DNA of 64,000 bases from a virus, in the IMG/VR virus record IMGVR_UViG_3300048018_000619, positions 29,253-93,252 of that record; one strand, 5' to 3'. Below, one piece after another: positions 3,620-50,377 of the stretch (within the stretch, counting starts at the first letter, position 1; each line of letters opens with the position of its first letter). Both the position numbers and the translations under genes were made by a program. The notes beneath the pieces were generated by a model. That model saw only the letters and a program-made list of their open reading frames with translations, was not told the origin of the DNA and searched no databases.

Positions 3620-4414
3620 TTAAATTAATTTTCGTTTAGTTTTTATGTTATCCGAATTTTTAGTTTTTATGTTATTCGAACTCAAATGAGGTATAATTAC
3701 CTCTTCAGCAAATTTTTCATGACCATAGGATGTTGGGTGTACACCTCGATTACCATCCTTGTCAAATGACATTGGCATCCCTAACTCATCATAGTTATTT
3801 TGAACCCATTCCATACAACCGTCAATAGGTAGAAATTTATCTAGATTTACCTTAGAGAAAAGAGGTACTATTTCAGGGTGATATTTTAAGTGTCCCCATT
3901 TAAATATATCCATATAAGTTGACATAAAATAATCAATACCCAAACTGTCTAAGTACCACTGAATTCTTAATATGTGTTCGATAGTAAAGACCATGGATGA
4001 TATTTCATTATGAAAGACTTCATAGTATGATTTAACTTCTTTACTTTCCCAATTAATGTTTAATATTCTCCAATTAAACTTACCATCAATAACATCGGTT
4101 GGATTTTTTATAGTATTATCATCTTTACTAAAAAATCCCCATGTTTTGACATCTTCTGTGTCTTCAGTATAATACTCATGTCTATTAACTCCCGACCACA
4201 TTATACCAACTAATATTTCTTCTTTCTTATATGTTTTAAGTAACTCATCTAATCCTGAAATAACCTTACGAGAAATTAGTCCATTACCTTGTGATGCCAT
4301 TCCTTTGTTCATCACATTTAAATTTAATTTTTGTGCCAAATGTCCCGGCCAATTCCAATCTTCAAATGTGAAACTACACCCACTTGCTAATAATACTTTT
4401 TTCCCCTCAACCAT
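3620..4414 (-). CDS. SGNH/GDSL-type hydrolase-like protein
   Basis: A 264-residue protein. It opens with VLLASGCSFTFED, the block I position of the SGNH superfamily (Gly-x-Ser), and near the C-terminus has HPTSYGHEKFAEEVI, the block V histidine. SGNH enzymes remove or transfer acyl groups, often O-acetyl on sugars, so a glycan-decorating role fits the glycosyltransferase context. The last 20 residues carry a near-duplicate (NIKTKNSDNIKTK), visible as a tandem repeat at 3631-3680. A late-type ATATTTATA motif lies 15 bases upstream of the ATG. Many phages carry uncharacterised relatives, and catalysis is not proven by the motifs alone. Confidence 0.6.
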   Translation of the reverse strand: MVEGKKVLLASGCSFTFEDWNWPGHLAQKLNLNVMNKGMASQGNGLISRKVISGLDELLKTYKKEEILVGIMWSGVNRHEYYTEDTEDVKTWGFFSKDDNTIKNPTDVIDGKFNWRILNINWESKEVKSYYEVFHNEISSMVFTIEHILRIQWYLDSLGIDYFMSTYMDIFKWGHLKYHPEIVPLFSKVNLDKFLPIDGCMEWVQNNYDELGMPMSFDKDGNRGVHPTSYGHEKFAEEVIIPHLSSNNIKTKNSDNIKTKRKLI

Positions 4415-4443: not shown

Positions 4444-6012
4444 TTATAATTTTTTAATGTAGTCAAGTATGTTTATCTCCTCAGGGGATTCAACATAATC
4501 TTGTGCACCAGGATTAGCCCACTGAGGTTCTAAAACCCAACCTTCTTCCTTAGCAATGGTGAGTACTTCATTAACATATTTATTATGTTTAGTATCATCA
4601 CCATTTAATGTTGTCTCCAACTCCTTGATATTTGTGTCAGGTATCAAATCCCACCACTTTTTTAACATAGGGAACGTTTCTAAGAAATTTTTACCTCTAC
4701 GTTTATCATATTGTTTGTAAAATGATTTAAAATCCCGTTCTCTAGTCTCTATAGATGATGTATGGTCATGACCTTCCTCAGTATTTCTTAGATAGTTGAT
4801 TAAACGGACCATACCATCACGCTCCCAATCCATAAAATAGTTAGAACCATCAGTGTAATTGTCCTCGATCCATTTTTCGAGTGCATCCGCCCTTTCTAAT
4901 CTCATTTGCATTGGTAATGTCACAATTGATTGAAATGACGGGAATCTTAGAATGTTAAAAGAACATACAGGTGATGAGGATTTATGTCTTCTTTTAATTT
5001 TCATCATTTCATCCATAAACTCAGGTAAACTAAAAAGACATAATGAGTTTATTGTTAACATCATATTAAGTGATTTAATATTTCCCTCATCTAATATTCT
5101 ATCTACATTTTTTAACCACTTCCTCCAATCTAATCCGTCTCTAATATATTCCGCATGAGTTCCATACGCTTCACAACTTGTATAAATGTGAAATGATTTA
5201 ACATTGTGACTATACTTAATAAGTGCGTCCATTATTTTATCACTTATACCCAAGTTAGAGTTTATTGCAAAATCAATTTCTGAGTTTTGGTTTGTTTCCC
5301 ACCACTTCATTAATTTCCAAAAATTACGGGACATTGATGGTTCACCACCTGTTACCCTTAACTCTCGTAATGAGTGTTGTAATTCACCCTCCCACCATTT
5401 CCAAAATGCGTCGACATAGGGGTTTTTTAAATTTAATTTTCCATAAGGCATTGCATGGTCACCATTATGTTGAAATGCACCCGCACCATCACTTACCAGA
5501 TTTTGGTAGGGACCATTCTTATTGATGTCTTTTTGCCATGTTGTGGAAAACGATGAGTTACAATATGAACAAGCAAAGTTACATACAGGATCAAACGAAA
5601 TTTCTAAAGTCCTTAGATCCACATCTTCACTTGCACCTAACTTTTCCTTGGCATCAACCAATTCTTTATCAGTGTAAATGACTGATTTATGTGTTCTATC
5701 AGAAATCATATCTTTCCCCAAATCTTCTATTCTCCAACAGTAATCACATTCTTTTGGACGTACACCCTCCAACATTTGTTTACGTACCGCCTTCTTATAT
5801 GTGGTATTATGGATTGCTTTATACGATTTTTCAAGATCTGTTAGTGGTATCTTATGTGACGGTGGGTGATGACAACTTGTTGTTGCCCCGTTACCTAACC
5901 ATATCGTTGCATTATACCATTTAGCCCCACAAAATGAAGGTGAAATTTTGTTAATTACCCGATCTCGATATTCGAGAAATGTTTCACCGGGTTTTCTTGC
6001 ATCTATACTCAT
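4444..6012 (-). CDS. Radical SAM protein with N-terminal twitch-like cysteine set
   Basis: A 522-residue protein. The radical-SAM CxxxCxxC motif is C144-C148-C151 (VCNFACSYC), followed by the GGEP motif (RVTGGEPSMS). Four further cysteines lie ahead of it: C28, C47 (CHHP), C89 and C92 (CDYCW). This is the layout of twitch/SPASM-type proteins, which hold an auxiliary iron-sulfur cluster, but here the module is N-terminal. The family cleaves S-adenosylmethionine to start radical chemistry; the substrate is unknown. A paralogue at 6598-7974 keeps exactly the same cysteine spacing. Lying among glycosyltransferases, it may modify a sugar or a peptide, which is inference. No Shine-Dalgarno is visible; the upstream bases are A/T only. 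Confidence 0.8.
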   Translation of the reverse strand: MSIDARKPGETFLEYRDRVINKISPSFCGAKWYNATIWLGNGATTSCHHPPSHKIPLTDLEKSYKAIHNTTYKKAVRKQMLEGVRPKECDYCWRIEDLGKDMISDRTHKSVIYTDKELVDAKEKLGASEDVDLRTLEISFDPVCNFACSYCNSSFSTTWQKDINKNGPYQNLVSDGAGAFQHNGDHAMPYGKLNLKNPYVDAFWKWWEGELQHSLRELRVTGGEPSMSRNFWKLMKWWETNQNSEIDFAINSNLGISDKIMDALIKYSHNVKSFHIYTSCEAYGTHAEYIRDGLDWRKWLKNVDRILDEGNIKSLNMMLTINSLCLFSLPEFMDEMMKIKRRHKSSSPVCSFNILRFPSFQSIVTLPMQMRLERADALEKWIEDNYTDGSNYFMDWERDGMVRLINYLRNTEEGHDHTSSIETRERDFKSFYKQYDKRRGKNFLETFPMLKKWWDLIPDTNIKELETTLNGDDTKHNKYVNEVLTIAKEEGWVLEPQWANPGAQDYVESPEEINILDYIKKL

Positions 6013-6029
6013 TATTTTATATTATAATT

Positions 6030-6614
6030 TTAAATTTTATGTAGGAAATTACAATTCCCTGAAATATCTACTGATTTGTTATGTATAAATTCCTCAAACG
6101 TATGTTCAGATATTAATTTACCATCTGTTATTAGTTTAAACTTATGAAACTCAAATTCAGTATAATTTGTATTCGTTTTATTCTTAGGGAAGTTACCCGC
6201 ACCAAAAATTATGTGAGGTGAGTGGTCTAAACCTAATTCCCTTTCACTCAAATCAACATTTAATATTACTTCACCATTTAAAAACAATTCAAACCTATCT
6301 TTATAAATGTGATTTAATTTAATATTAGTTAGTTGATTAGGGACCACCATATGTTCTAAGGTATAATATTCTACATCATCTTGAAAAGTGATTGTAAATG
6401 AGATATTAGTAGGGTTAATATTTAAACCCATATACCTTGGTACTAATGCAAATAGAGTTTTCTCCAAATCACTCTCATCTGTTAATACAAAATCAACTTC
6501 TAAGGTGTAATTTAATTTATTGGATAGTATTTTGTTTCCCGCATCTTCAGGAAATGTTTCACAAATACTATTAGGCCAAAATATCCAAGGTTCCCCTTTA
6601 TTGATTTTTAACAT
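6030..6614 (-). CDS. Concanavalin A-like (LamG-type) domain protein
   Basis: A 194-residue protein made of alternating beta-strand segments. It contains FELFLNGEVILNV, the typical 'feature of an inserted sugar-binding sheet' seen in LamG/laminin-G folds, and the C-terminal F.F.KFKLI strand. It has no catalytic motif. Its start overlaps the end of the radical-SAM gene 6598-7974 by 17 bases in another frame, so the two are translationally coupled. It sits between the two radical-SAM paralogues. A role in binding carbohydrate or as a partner of those enzymes is plausible but not shown. Confidence 0.5.
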   Translation of the reverse strand: MLKINKGEPWIFWPNSICETFPEDAGNKILSNKLNYTLEVDFVLTDESDLEKTLFALVPRYMGLNINPTNISFTITFQDDVEYYTLEHMVVPNQLTNIKLNHIYKDRFELFLNGEVILNVDLSERELGLDHSPHIIFGAGNFPKNKTNTNYTEFEFHKFKLITDGKLISEHTFEEFIHNKSVDISGNCNFLHKI

Positions 6615-7974
6615 AGAACTCTTTTAGTTGTGGAAATGTGTCCAAAAAATTTAATTTTCGTCTTTTATCGTACTGATCAACGAATTTAACGAAATCCTTC
6701 CTGTTGGTTTCAACGTCGAAGTCGTCCGTACTAATTGCGTAATCATATGTTCGTTTTAATTTTTGTATTTCTACGGTAGAAAACCCATAATTATCATGAG
6801 TGAATTCCTTCATACCATAATATAACATTTTTTTAGCTGATTGTAAAATCAATTCTTTATGATTATCCTCTAAAATTTTAACTGACAGGTGTTTAGGGTG
6901 TCGTATGTATGATGTGTCTAATTGTATTGCAGACACCCAATACCTTTCATTATTTTGGTATTTTCTTTTCAGATCAAATACTCTATCAATTAAATCATCA
7001 TATGTGAATACAGATAATGCGTTGTATGTTGACATTATATTAATAGTCACTTTTGGTAACTTACTAAGTATTTTCTCAACATTAGTCCAAAATTTACTAG
7101 TATCTAACCCATACCTCAGATATTCTGCTTGTGACTTGGTTGCTTCGATTGATGTAAAAACAATAAACTCCTTTACTTTATTGTTTTCTGTTAAATCTTC
7201 TATGATATTGATGAACCTATCAATGATATCATCACTCACACCTAAATTTGTGTTTATGGCTAACGATAGGTTAGGATTTACTTCGTGGTTATTTTGTATA
7301 TATTCCAATAACTTAAAAGTGTCTGATGATAGTAGTGGTTCACCTCCCGTCACCCTAAATGTGTGTAGGTCAGGATACAAATCAGGGAACCATTTCCAAA
7401 ACGCCTCAACATATGGATTAAAATCATTATGATGAATTGGCATTTCATTTTTCTTTTTTAAATGTTCCGTATCATTATAATCATACGATAATTTATAAGC
7501 ACCATTTTTATTTATCTCATTCACCCATTTCGATGAGAATTGTGGTCCACAATACGCACATTTAAAATTACATACGTTTGAGAAAGAAACCTCAACATAT
7601 TTTGGATTATAATTACCTCTCCATCCGTATTCTTTAATTTCTTCTATGTATGGTGCTGACCATGACTCTGAAGATTTAAATACCCTGTCTGAGAATGAGT
7701 TTGAGTTGTCCTCGATCTTCCAACAATAATCACACTCACTAGGTCTTTCACCTTCCAACATTTGTTTACGAGCCCTCTTTTTGTGTTGTGTGTTGTGTAG
7801 TGCCGATGGGTTATTTCTTAATTCGGCTAAACCAATTTTATGTGGGTTGGGGTGGTGACATGAATGTGTTAACCCCGTACCTAAATGTATAGTTACTTGT
7901 GTCCACTTTGCAGCACAAAAACCTCTACCCTTTTGGTCTAGTTGTTTCTTTATGTTGGATAGTAACTCACTCAT
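6598..7974 (-). CDS. Radical SAM protein, paralogue of the 522-residue enzyme
   Basis: A 458-residue protein. The radical-SAM cysteines are C135-C139-C142 (VCNFKCAYC), followed by RVTGGEPLLS. The N-terminal cysteines are C20, C39 (CHHP), C81 and C84 (CDYC). Spacings of 18, 41 and 2 residues between these four are identical to the neighbour at 4444-6012, which argues for a shared auxiliary metal site. The two proteins also share the C-terminal QYDKRRxxNFLxTFP segment. The gene overlaps the upstream galactosyltransferase-like gene by four bases (ATGA). Substrate unknown. Two diverged copies in one operon suggest two related substrates or a heterodimer. Confidence 0.8.
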   Translation of the reverse strand: MSELLSNIKKQLDQKGRGFCAAKWTQVTIHLGTGLTHSCHHPNPHKIGLAELRNNPSALHNTQHKKRARKQMLEGERPSECDYCWKIEDNSNSFSDRVFKSSESWSAPYIEEIKEYGWRGNYNPKYVEVSFSNVCNFKCAYCGPQFSSKWVNEINKNGAYKLSYDYNDTEHLKKKNEMPIHHNDFNPYVEAFWKWFPDLYPDLHTFRVTGGEPLLSSDTFKLLEYIQNNHEVNPNLSLAINTNLGVSDDIIDRFINIIEDLTENNKVKEFIVFTSIEATKSQAEYLRYGLDTSKFWTNVEKILSKLPKVTINIMSTYNALSVFTYDDLIDRVFDLKRKYQNNERYWVSAIQLDTSYIRHPKHLSVKILEDNHKELILQSAKKMLYYGMKEFTHDNYGFSTVEIQKLKRTYDYAISTDDFDVETNRKDFVKFVDQYDKRRKLNFLDTFPQLKEFYVKNQ

Positions 7975-46576: not shown

Positions 46577-47074
46577 TTAATCTATTCTTCTTTGAGATAT
46601 TAGGTCATTCATTGCATCTGCGAATACATCTTCAAACTTTAAAAGTTTTTGAATTGACTCTAATAGGTCATAATTCACTTTTAACATAGCGGTATTAAGG
46701 TATGTACCTTTATTTTCACCTGCAATTATTACAAAATCTAAACCAACGTCAGGTAAATTACCATCTAATCTTACTTGATTAGATTGTATTGTAACGCCTG
46801 GTCGAAGATCACCTAAATCCGATACCTGTGTACCGAAATTACTAATCACGTCCCCTATGGTCTTCTTTTGTACCTCGTTAACATCCAAATCCTCATCAGT
46901 TGAAGAAATGAGTCTCACTTCAACACCATTGACGACGATTACATTGTCTTTTAATTCTTTTTTCTCCTCTTGCTCTGAAATTGTCCCTTTTTCAAGTGTT
47001 GACTCTGTCAGATTCCTTAGAGTATTCAACATTTTTTTAGTATTATCGTAGTTCATATGTGTTTTATATTTCAT
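46577..47074 (-). CDS. Hypothetical protein
   Basis: 165 residues. A charged N-terminal part (TLRNLTESTLEKGTISEQEEKK) is followed by strands (NVIVVNGVEVRLISS, GLDFVIIAGENKGTYLNTA). It could start at 47074 or at the second ATG, 47056. It overlaps the amidase-like gene by 11 bases at the longer start. A TATTTATA also sits 42 bases upstream, inside the amidase-like gene. Not recognised; a virion or assembly role is only suggested by context. Confidence 0.42.
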   Translation of the reverse strand: MKYKTHMNYDNTKKMLNTLRNLTESTLEKGTISEQEEKKELKDNVIVVNGVEVRLISSTDEDLDVNEVQKKTIGDVISNFGTQVSDLGDLRPGVTIQSNQVRLDGNLPDVGLDFVIIAGENKGTYLNTAMLKVNYDLLESIQKLLKFEDVFADAMNDLISQRRID

Positions 47075-47669
47075 CGTCTAAGAATTTTTTAAAATTAAAC
47101 GAAGGGTTTATATCTGTATAAATATTTGAAAAATTGGATTTACATACAATTCCTTTAAATTTATCTATCTTTTCTATGTAACCGTGACTGGGAACCACTC
47201 TTTTATGTATTTGTTTCTCTTCACAGATATATTCACATAAATTAACAATACTTTCCATTTGTTGGTCAGTATAACGATCCCAATAAAATTTATCTCTCCA
47301 ACTTCTAATAAATGGGTCACTTCTATGGGGGTCACCTATCCAATTACTATAATAACCCGTTATAGTGTTCTTTTGTAACCACCCCAAATTTTCAACCGCA
47401 ATTTTAACTTGTTTTTTGTCTAATTCATGATTACCAAACGTAACTGAAGAATAATCCATGTCCAAAACTTGGTATATGTCCCCCATCTTAGAAACAATAA
47501 AATGAGGAATATCCTCATAATTACCATCTTGTCTATATTTTAATTTACCGACAAAGTCATCAATCCTACGTTTAGTATCATATAAAAGAATTTGTTTCTT
47601 TTTATATTTTCTACCAATGTGGTTTAATTTTTTTTTATCTATTGTTTCTACGTCTCGAATTTCCAACAT
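47064..47669 (-). CDS. N-acetylmuramoyl-L-alanine amidase-like (PGRP fold) protein
   Basis: 201 residues. The fold markers are [18 protein letters not shown] (like the 'yHfvIdrdGtiyql' strand), [37 protein letters not shown] and [14 protein letters not shown] (like the 'DPGpaFdw' end). In active amidases the first strand carries a zinc-binding histidine; here it reads ILLYDTKR, without one. So the fold looks kept, but one zinc ligand appears lost. It could be a weak or altered enzyme, or a structural peptidoglycan-binding protein. Confidence 0.58.
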
Positions 47670-48042
47670 TTCTAGTGATTACTTTTGACCCTACCATCAT
47701 ATATGGTTCTTGTGGTATAACTTTAGGTTCCATATAAAGGTCGTCCACAAATACTGTGGGTGATGGTGTAGGTGTATTGGTTGGAGTTGGTGTGGGTGTA
47801 CCACTTACCGTGGGTGTGGGAGTTGGAGTATTAGTAGGGTTTGGTGTAGGACTACTTGTGGGGTAAGGTGTAGGTTGTGGTGTACTAGTTGGAATTACCG
47901 TACTTGTGGGGTAAGGTGTAGGTTGTGGTGTACTAGTTGGAATTACCGTACTTGTGGGGTAAGGTGTGGGAGTATTAAAAGGTACCGAAGTCAATGTTGG
48001 AATTTGGGTTCCTGTAGGTAGTACTTCTTCTAATTTTTTTTT
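47635..48042 (-). CDS. Pro-Thr-rich extension frame, probably joined by -1 frameshift
   Basis: The frame is open from 48042 to a stop at 47635. It has no ATG before its last part; the only early start is a TTG at 47994. The product is rich in PTP repeats, including a 16-residue unit [16 protein letters not shown] in tandem, and ends in a short basic tail (NSRRRNNR). The preceding gene ends in the other frame at an A10 run (48034-48043), just where a -1 slip would continue into this frame. So it is probably the C-terminal tail of the upstream membrane protein. Confidence 0.5.
47855..47967 (-). repeat. 48-base tandem repeat coding for a Pro-Thr unit
   Basis: A 48-base unit, encoding [16 protein letters not shown], occurs about 2.3 times and the copies are nearly identical at DNA level. 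Such recent duplications suggest copy-number change in this tail. Confidence 0.8.
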
Positions 48043-49244
48043 TCAGGTTCTGTTTGATCCTGCAATTCGTCTTGTATTTTTCCAACAACGAAGTTTGGAA
48101 ATGGTGAAGTAGTGGGGGTTGGTGTGGGTGATGGTTTTATCTCCACATCGACATCAAAATCATTCTTTGGGGTAAATTGATTTTCATCTATATCAACACT
48201 AACCTCTTTCTTTGGTGTGGGTGTCGAAATTTCTCCTGTCTGTAAATCTAACTCCGCAGTTTCTATTGTATCTGGTAATATACCTTCCTTTTCTTTTGAA
48301 TCCCAATCAGTACTTTTAGTTAAATAATCACTTCTTTGTTCATATCTATTGGAGACTTTATTAGGGGTAGGTTCTTCTTTCACTTCTTCAGGTTCGTTAA
48401 CCTCAATTTCTTTAAGGTCCTCCTCTGTTAAATCTTGAACCATATCATTCATTACCATATCTAATGCATGATCTTCGTCCCACTCGTCTTCAGATTCCTT
48501 AGCCCATTGTTCCAATTCCTCATCACTTATTGGAGGTTGTTCAGTAAACCACTCAGGTGGTTTTTCATCAAAGACATCTTCTACTTTTGAAGGTGGTTCA
48601 AAACCTCTCGCTTCATCAGGTAAGTCGGGTGTTGGTGGTTCGACTCTTTCCTCTGGTTTGAATTTGTTTAATAAGTGTTCTAACTTATCTAATTCTTCAT
48701 TAGTGGGTTTTATTTTTGTTTCTTCTTCAATTACTTTTTTAGTGTCTTCTCCGTTCTCCTCTTTAGTTGCATCAACATTATTCTCCTCATTAAATTTTAC
48801 TAACATGTGTAGGAATGATAATGAAATTAGTGGTAACATACCACCCGCAAATATCGCTAAGAATCTTCTATGTGATTGTAAGTCCCCTTGTTCTATACCA
48901 ATGTATTCCAATATTGGTCCTGTTAACTCTACCCAAGAGAGAAACTGTTCATTACCTATTTTAATGAATTCAAATGCGAAGAAAATATTACCAATAAACT
49001 GTATTAAGGTAACAATACCAAAGGGTACATAAACTTTAGATCCCATTTGAGCCGAGATGGCGGCCAATGCGGATAATGCGGCAATCTCTATCCCTATTGA
49101 TAGATATAATGCCCATGACATTGGATTAGATATACCATACCATACAGTAACGTGAGATATAGAAACTATCGCTACCGTTATGATCGGAACTAAAAACGAA
49201 ATATAAATTAATAACCTAAAGTTATTCTTCAACCATTTACCCAT
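48030..49244 (-). CDS. Membrane protein with four N-terminal helices and long acidic Pro-rich tail
   Basis: 404 residues. Four hydrophobic segments occupy about 10-170 ([79 protein letters not shown]). The following 230 residues are acidic and Pro-rich, ending in [14 protein letters not shown]. The last bases form an A10 run immediately before the stop, with a Pro-Thr frame continuing in -1. The gene overlaps the 100-residue membrane gene by one base. Not recognised as a known family; a cell-envelope or lysis-stage role is possible. Confidence 0.5.
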
Positions 49245-49547
49245 CTACTTTAAAAGTTCACTTTGTAATAGCTCTAACTCTTTTTCAATTTGAGTTTGTC
49301 TGTTTAAGTCAAACATTTTTCTGTCAGTTGCCTGTATCATTCTATGTTCACTCTTTAATCCTTCGATTTTTAATCTTAGATCTAATTGTTCTTTAGTATA
49401 AGTTCTTTCTTTGGTGAACTCCTTTAATTCTACCATTTCTTTTTTCAATGCAGACATTTCTCTACTATCACCACAACCTCTAAAAAAGGTAAAAAGTAAT
49501 ATGACGAAAACTACAGTGATAAAATGTTTTTCTAAAAATTTTTTCAT
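49245..49547 (-). CDS. Small membrane-anchored coiled-coil protein
   Basis: 100 residues. One N-terminal hydrophobic segment (FITVVFVILLFTFF) is followed by RGCGDS, and then a long charged helix (LKKEMVELKEFTKERTYTK). The cysteine after the segment could be a lipid site, but the preceding bases do not fit a good lipobox. Inner-membrane spanins look like this (helix anchor plus coiled coil), and it is next to a sigma gene. The spanin idea is a guess. A TATTTATA lies 18 bases upstream. Confidence 0.42.
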   Translation of the reverse strand: MKKFLEKHFITVVFVILLFTFFRGCGDSREMSALKKEMVELKEFTKERTYTKEQLDLRLKIEGLKSEHRMIQATDRKMFDLNRQTQIEKELELLQSELLK

Positions 49548-49564
49548 AATTATATTTTTTCCTA

Positions 49565-50377
49565 TTATAAATATTTTAATAATGTAAAACTCTCGTTTCT
49601 AAGTTTTTTCATTGCCTTTTCTTTTACCTGTCTGATCCTTTCTTTGGTACATCCAAACTCTTCACCCAAGTCTTCTAAATTACATTGTACCCCATTTAAT
49701 CCAAAGTATTTTTCAATTATCGTTCTTTCTTTATCGTTTAGAATTGATAGAGCGTTCTTCACTTGTTTTTTTCTTTCTTGTTCATTTTCCAAATAACTCT
49801 CAGGATTCAGAGAGTCCTTATTAACGACAATATCAATCAATTGATCACCTTCTTCATTAATAGGATTACTTAAACTTACGGTTTTTGGAACATATTGTGA
49901 AGCCTGTTTGTTATATTTTTCCACAAAATCGGGATCATCTTCAGAAACTACCATTCTTTTTGCTTTCTGATGTTCTTGAATAATATTAGATGGTAATCTT
50001 ATTGTTCTTGCATTTTCATTCAAAGAAGACATTATTGCCTGTCTAATCCACCACACAGCATAAGAAATGAATCTGACTTTTTTATGAGGGTCAAATTCTT
50101 CAGATGCTCTAATCATACCAATATTTCCTTCTGAAATTAAATCAGGTAAATCTAACCCCTGATTTGAATATTGTTTAGCAACACTAATAACAAACCTAAG
50201 ATTACCTTTTACCAACTCATGTTGTAACGCCGATTTTTCTTTTTCGGTTATGTTTTCTTGTTTAAGACTATGAATAATTTCTTTAAGTCTTTTGTTGTTG
50301 GTTGTTGGTATTTTTTTTACGTCTTTAAGGTAGAAACTTATCTCTTCGGTGTTTAGAAAACTGTTGCTTTTGTTCAT
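49565..50377 (-). CDS. Sigma-70 family RNA polymerase sigma factor
   Basis: 270 residues. Region 1.2-like NTEEISFYLKDVKKIP is followed by region 2 (NLRFVISVAKQYSNQGLDLPDL, GNIGMIRA and FISYAVWWIRQAIM), close to the primary RpoD of Bacteroidota. Region 3 is short (SLSNPINEEGDQLIDIVV). Region 4 is CTKERIRQVKEKAMKKL, with the helix-turn-helix that reads -35. A host-type promoter (TTG-N19-TATTTTAG) lies upstream. This phage factor may direct host polymerase to a different -10 such as TATTTATA. That link is inference. Confidence 0.88.
   Translation of the reverse strand: MNKSNSFLNTEEISFYLKDVKKIPTTNNKRLKEIIHSLKQENITEKEKSALQHELVKGNLRFVISVAKQYSNQGLDLPDLISEGNIGMIRASEEFDPHKKVRFISYAVWWIRQAIMSSLNENARTIRLPSNIIQEHQKAKRMVVSEDDPDFVEKYNKQASQYVPKTVSLSNPINEEGDQLIDIVVNKDSLNPESYLENEQERKKQVKNALSILNDKERTIIEKYFGLNGVQCNLEDLGEEFGCTKERIRQVKEKAMKKLRNESFTLLKYL
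49566..49573 (-). promoter_or_regulatory. Late-type promoter motif TATTTATA
   Basis: Coding strand AATATTTATAATAGG, 18 bases before the ATG at 49547. It lies inside the 3' end of the sigma gene. Confidence 0.4.

Follow-up and report, generated by a model that had tools for sequence, protein, structure and literature searches.

Conserved homopolymeric runs that yield two proteins from one gene have been documented in a few bacterial genes, and the closest precedents for the locus described here, tssM1 and spa13, are bacterial. Citrobacter rodentium tssM1 and Yersinia pseudotuberculosis tssM3 are subject to transcriptional slippage (PMC4256274). As in our locus, a poly-A run lies shortly before an early stop codon in the gene of an inner-membrane protein, and one extra A gives access to the long form. 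Slippage extends the product of tssM1 and truncates that of tssM3 (PMC4256274), two outcomes that mirror the shift and fused classes described below. In contrast to our case, the tssM genes are bacterial secretion genes encoding an unrelated protein, slippage was demonstrated by mass spectrometry of the mRNA (PMC4256274) whereas here it is proposed from sequence, and only two cases of slippage were found by the authors among tssM genes (PMC4256274), against the 27 clusters reported here. Transcriptional slippage likewise adds a C-terminal extension to the products of Shigella spa13 and mxiE (PMC5009743). The coding end of the spa13 extension overlaps the next gene and affects its expression (PMC5009743), a coupling for which our locus is a candidate, although the genes and their context differ. 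A third bacterial case is Thermus thermophilus dnaX, where transcriptional slippage on an A9 run endows one gene with two C-termini (PMC3711429), and dnaX genes with A10 are predicted to slip likewise (PMC3711429); it is, however, a cellular DNA polymerase gene, and its protein is unrelated.

Among phages, the shift of lambda G/GT and the related tail-chaperone shifts resemble our locus in being conserved -1 events near the gene end that give a short and a long product (PMC5009743), but they are ribosomal, concern a tail-assembly gene rather than a membrane protein and occur without a long homopolymer (PMC5009743). Our search, which covered the open-access literature, found no case of a conserved homopolymer yielding two products in a tailed phage. 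The closest phage case was a frameshifted methyltransferase gene of a Campylobacter phage, which according to its authors slippage could express (PMC2853527). The mechanism proposed below is thus of a known kind, and the gene family and the virus group appear to be new to it within the open-access literature searched.

Results

The window, that is, the whole 64-kb stretch of DNA that was analysed, belongs to a 93-kb IMG/VR virus record. The features of the locus are listed in Table 1. Read in the 0-frame of the minus strand, the junction is CCT GAA AAA AAA AAT TAG. This A10 run is the only one in the window with both strands counted; since chance alone would give 2.8, the presence of such a run is not in itself improbable, and what is improbable is its conservation. 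A TGA immediately 5′ of the run closes the -1 frame, which afterwards stays open for 135 codons, so that any shift must occur within the run. This frame has its first ATG 99 codons past the 0-frame stop; one TTG is present, 12 codons in. A preliminary description of this DNA had placed an A10 run followed by a stop at exactly the positions found here, and its account of a 135-codon frame devoid of an early ATG was also confirmed. It had further put a PTPTPT segment at the end of the membrane protein; the segment exists, but some 30 residues upstream of the 0-frame terminus. Over 9.2 kb the window was 100% identical to another IMG/VR record (L001), exactly A10 included.

Table 1. Features of the putative slip site and of the surrounding genes, in window coordinates
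Feature	Position	Strand	Remarks
A10 run, putative slip site	48034..48043	-	0-frame GAA AAA AAA AAT; heptamers A_AAA_AAA and A_AAA_AAT within
0-frame TAG stop	48030..48032	-	directly 3′ of the A10 run; terminates the 404-aa short form
Short form, 404 aa	48030..49244	-	minus-strand ORF; four-helix membrane domain, then an acidic tail with P/T
Conserved four-transmembrane-helix domain, residues 1-155	48780..49244	-	hydropathy, AlphaFold2 helices (moderate confidence), alignments
-1 frame extension, predicted for the long form only	47635..48042	-	135 codons (47638-48042) plus stop (47635-47637); Pro/Thr-rich; dN/dS ~0.24 vs L002
DDLYME, local copy of the D-x-LYWE-like peptide	47728..47745	-	peptide type confined to tails
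Amidase_2 (N-acetylmuramoyl-L-alanine amidase, likely endolysin)	47064..47669	-	Pfam PF01510, E=1.3e-8
Small membrane/coiled-coil-like protein	49245..49547	-	directly upstream of the membrane protein; syntenic in all three classes
Phage sigma-70-type factor	49565..50377	-	Pfam and PHROG matches; syntenic in all three classes

Scanning IMG/VR at the protein level retrieved L002, L003 and L004, with 76, 61 and 53% identity over the best segment, and the distant L005. The first three keep the junction [CT]CT GAA AAA AAA AAT (CAA) TAG with a -1 frame of 117-124 codons. With two profile scans added, 72 distinct homologous loci were obtained, and all of them fell into three classes; a pattern scan of viral contigs with GAAAAAAAAAATN{0,6}TAG was too unspecific to use. 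The shift class comprises 46 loci whose run is A10 in 36 cases, A11 in eight and A9 in two. The 0-frame stop follows the run after 0-3 codons in 46/46, and past it the -1 tail continues for 32-150 codons (the contig ends within one tail), as far as the beginning of the downstream amidase gene. Linking loci at ≥80% nucleotide identity over at least half of the compared region gave 27 shift clusters. Proteins of the no-shift class (n = 22) measure 230-290 aa and extend straight to the amidase start, without a run of A9 or more at the junction. The fused class (n = 4; L011, L019, L215 and L241) encodes the long form in frame 0 and retains A10 runs, six in all. A fused frame, for which the preliminary description had proposed to look in relatives, exists in 4 of the 72 loci. 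The immediate stops that slippage would bring about in fused genes do not, by our estimate, reach significance on their own in AT-rich DNA. When a tree of the membrane domain was built (midpoint root), the no-shift loci formed one side of a branch with support 90/74; shift loci were placed on both sides of the no-shift branch, and fused loci were scattered inside the shift group.

Two smaller features of these classes are worth recording. L215 carries two in-frame A10 runs (3767-3776 and 4046-4055), both within EEKKN and flanking a Pro-Thr segment; L011 has two A10 runs, and L019 one A9 and one A10. In an A11 subgroup of the shift class (L269, L273, L275 and L278), the -1 tails are very short, 32-33 codons beyond the stop; they keep a YWE-type peptide and terminate either at the amidase start or next to it, the usual basic C-terminus being absent.

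How exceptional the junction run is can be judged from the sequence around it. Sense coding sequence in the flanks (411 kb, related flanks being partly redundant) contained 424 A7, 98 A8, 12 A9, one A10 and no A11 runs, and past the membrane domain the shift genes themselves had 46 runs of at least nine at the junction vs four elsewhere. Because runs of A9 or more are rare in the flanks, their presence at 46/46 junctions indicates selection. The codon context differs among loci (GAA-AAA-AAA-AAT, TTA-AAA-AAA-AAA, GTA-AAA-AAA-AAG, ATA-AAA-AAA-AAC), as do the encoded peptide (EKKN, LKKK, VKKK, IKKN) and the codon phase of the run, while the run itself is constant. The shift needed to enter the tail is -1 in 46 of the 50 run-bearing loci; four are in frame, and none requires +1. 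On these comparative grounds, the junction is a conserved frameshift site.

To evaluate the tail as coding sequence, dN and dS were estimated pairwise in the -1 frame, leaving aside the 13 final codons, which overlap the amidase start. Between the window and L002, dN was 0.173 and dS 0.714, the changes numbering 17 at first, 17 at second and 41 at third codon positions. dN was lower than dS in most tail pairs with enough changes; in several very short, close pairs (e.g. L032 with L050), dN was not below dS. The last ~11 residues are constrained by the overlap with the amidase start. A D-x-LYWE-like peptide was present in 29/46 shift tails and 2/4 fused proteins, and in 0/46 short forms and 0/22 no-shift proteins. 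Peptides of this type occurred in 0.5% of shuffled tails; the pattern was chosen after viewing the tails, and the contrast between classes consequently weighs more than the shuffle figure. The tails show purifying selection at the protein level. The preliminary description had stressed their Pro-Thr composition, which is true of this locus and is incidental to the family, since the tails of many relatives are acidic, in several lineages. The conserved features are the run, the direction of the shift, the arrival of the tail at the amidase start and, for the majority of tails, the D-x-LYWE-like peptide.

The gene order (sigma factor, 100-aa small protein, membrane protein, amidase, and proteins of 165, 81 and 173 aa) is broadly kept in representatives of all three classes. 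The AlphaFold2 model of the membrane domain had a mean pLDDT of 71.8 and four predicted helices, in agreement with hydropathy. The short form matched no Pfam and no PHROG family, and no significant match by family, fold or solved structure pointed to a named function. A fold search returned two significant matches, both uncharacterised Caudovirales proteins, with no holin among them, and none was significant against PDB. The gene adjoins the amidase, and a PHROG holin match was weak (best E=0.012, 5/55 members), which by itself does not establish holin identity. The amidase neighbourhood suggests, by position, a lysis module. Among annotated phages, the membrane domain had a single match, distant and unannotated, and the amidase had none.

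A Shine-Dalgarno-like motif was found upstream of only 3/48 major genes of the window. Two reports describe Bacteroidota ribosomes as not using Shine-Dalgarno sequences (PMC6847099, PMC9976891), and the low use seen here resembles this, which suggests a Bacteroidota-type host. The Bacteroidota-type promoter pattern TTTG-N17-21-TAnnTTTG showed no excess, and a tRNA search found none. A genome collection gave one match, L290, a 3.3-kb contig of the no-shift type with the same gene order. L290 comes from the bin of a Lake Lanier Alphaproteobacteria genome; it is probably a phage contig, so that the bin does not settle the host.

Discussion

Comparative evidence supports the run, its length, the direction of the shift and the tail as selected coding sequence, and programmed frameshifting of one kind or the other is highly probable. 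That polymerase rather than ribosome slips, the ratio of products and the lysis-related role are steps that we infer. According to the full model, which we consider likely, RNA polymerase would slip on the A10 run, and a minority of transcripts would gain one extra A. Unslipped transcripts would be translated into the 404-aa short membrane protein, and those with the additional A into a long form of about 536 aa, whose -1 tail would extend to where the amidase gene begins. Both lengths, made probably at a fixed ratio, would serve an inner-membrane function beside the endolysin, and translation of the tail may also affect amidase expression. Polymerase slippage is favoured over ribosomal frameshifting by the length of the run, by the direction and by the lack of conserved stimulators. 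In A/T runs, the polymerase mostly inserts a single base, and insertions increase exponentially as the run lengthens (PMC5574713); this dominant insertion error, of one base, matches the uniform -1 direction. We also count for polymerase slippage the retention of runs in the fused genes, where slippage would truncate the protein instead.

The same long form could be made by programmed -1 ribosomal frameshifting on A_AAA_AAA or A_AAA_AAT. Ribosomal slippage could contribute or even dominate, since good -1 heptamers lie inside the run: A_AAA_AAN is present in the right frame at every shift site, the direction is -1, a few sites have AAG as in dnaX, and a Shine-Dalgarno-like GAGGAAG lies just upstream of a subset of sites. 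As the source of the long form we nevertheless regard it as unlikely. An A7 heptamer suffices for the ribosome, yet the minimum run at the shift sites is nine, a length rare elsewhere. Downstream of the sites no consistent stem-loop was predicted (mean z -0.39 over 45 sites), an Rfam search gave no match, and a Shine-Dalgarno stimulator is improbable in a virus that hardly uses Shine-Dalgarno sequences. A stimulator is not required by every ribosomal shift.

Compatible with slippage by the polymerase is the idea that the shift serves mainly to couple translation to the amidase start rather than to produce a functional long protein. Arguing for it, most shift loci have the tail stop 29-35 nt beyond the ATG of the amidase (in the window the overlap is 35 nt, tail stop included), and spa13 slippage affects spa32 in Shigella (PMC5009743). 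Nearly all genes lack a Shine-Dalgarno sequence, and its absence before the amidase is therefore uninformative on coupling. We think it improbable that coupling is the main purpose, because the tail bears signs of protein-level selection and a conserved peptide, the tails of L238, L269 and L273 stop just before the amidase start, and the no-shift clade reaches the amidase without any shift.

It is far less plausible that the run is a phase-variable contingency locus, in which replication slippage would change its length in the DNA and toggle the extension. Long homopolymers do mutate readily, and in four loci the long form is encoded in frame. Nevertheless, exactly A10 was found in 12/12 contigs of one virus group and an identical A10 in five contigs of another, and switching would fill all phases, of which +1 is absent; given the constant run length among close relatives, we reject phase variation. 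Still harder to sustain is a tail gene with its own start, for which the TTG in the window might serve: this TTG is missing from L002-L004, the first half of 39/45 tails lacks an ATG, it is at the run that the -1 frame becomes open, and the fused genes encode both parts as one protein. Comparison with relatives, in none of which the tail frame has a conserved start codon (the preliminary description had named such a start as evidence against a shift), leads us to reject it. Finally, of the three explanations originally offered, frameshifting by ribosome or polymerase is supported, and the third, a homopolymer sequencing or assembly error, is hardly credible despite the error-prone nature of homopolymers, being refuted by relatives that share the run and the -1 tail in 46 distinct loci and 27 divergent clusters from many metagenomes, down to ~53% protein identity in the window's subgroup.

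These results add an unnamed membrane protein family, carried by scores of environmental phages, to the recoded genes, and standard gene calling truncates its members. A broader reading, which we put forward as tentative, is that in widespread uncultured phages, perhaps of Bacteroidota, polymerase slippage on a deeply conserved run determines the ratio in which a lysis-module membrane protein is made in its two lengths, that some lineages invert the default, and that slippage may also gate endolysin expression. If such gating is true, the timing of lysis would depend on polymerase fidelity.

Two further observations concern the window itself. In the Pro-Thr tail, at positions 47853-47967, a 67-base sequence recurs without mismatch as a direct repeat at an offset of 48, and tail length may vary through change in this repeat. 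At 4444-7974, two radical SAM-like genes lie near each other.
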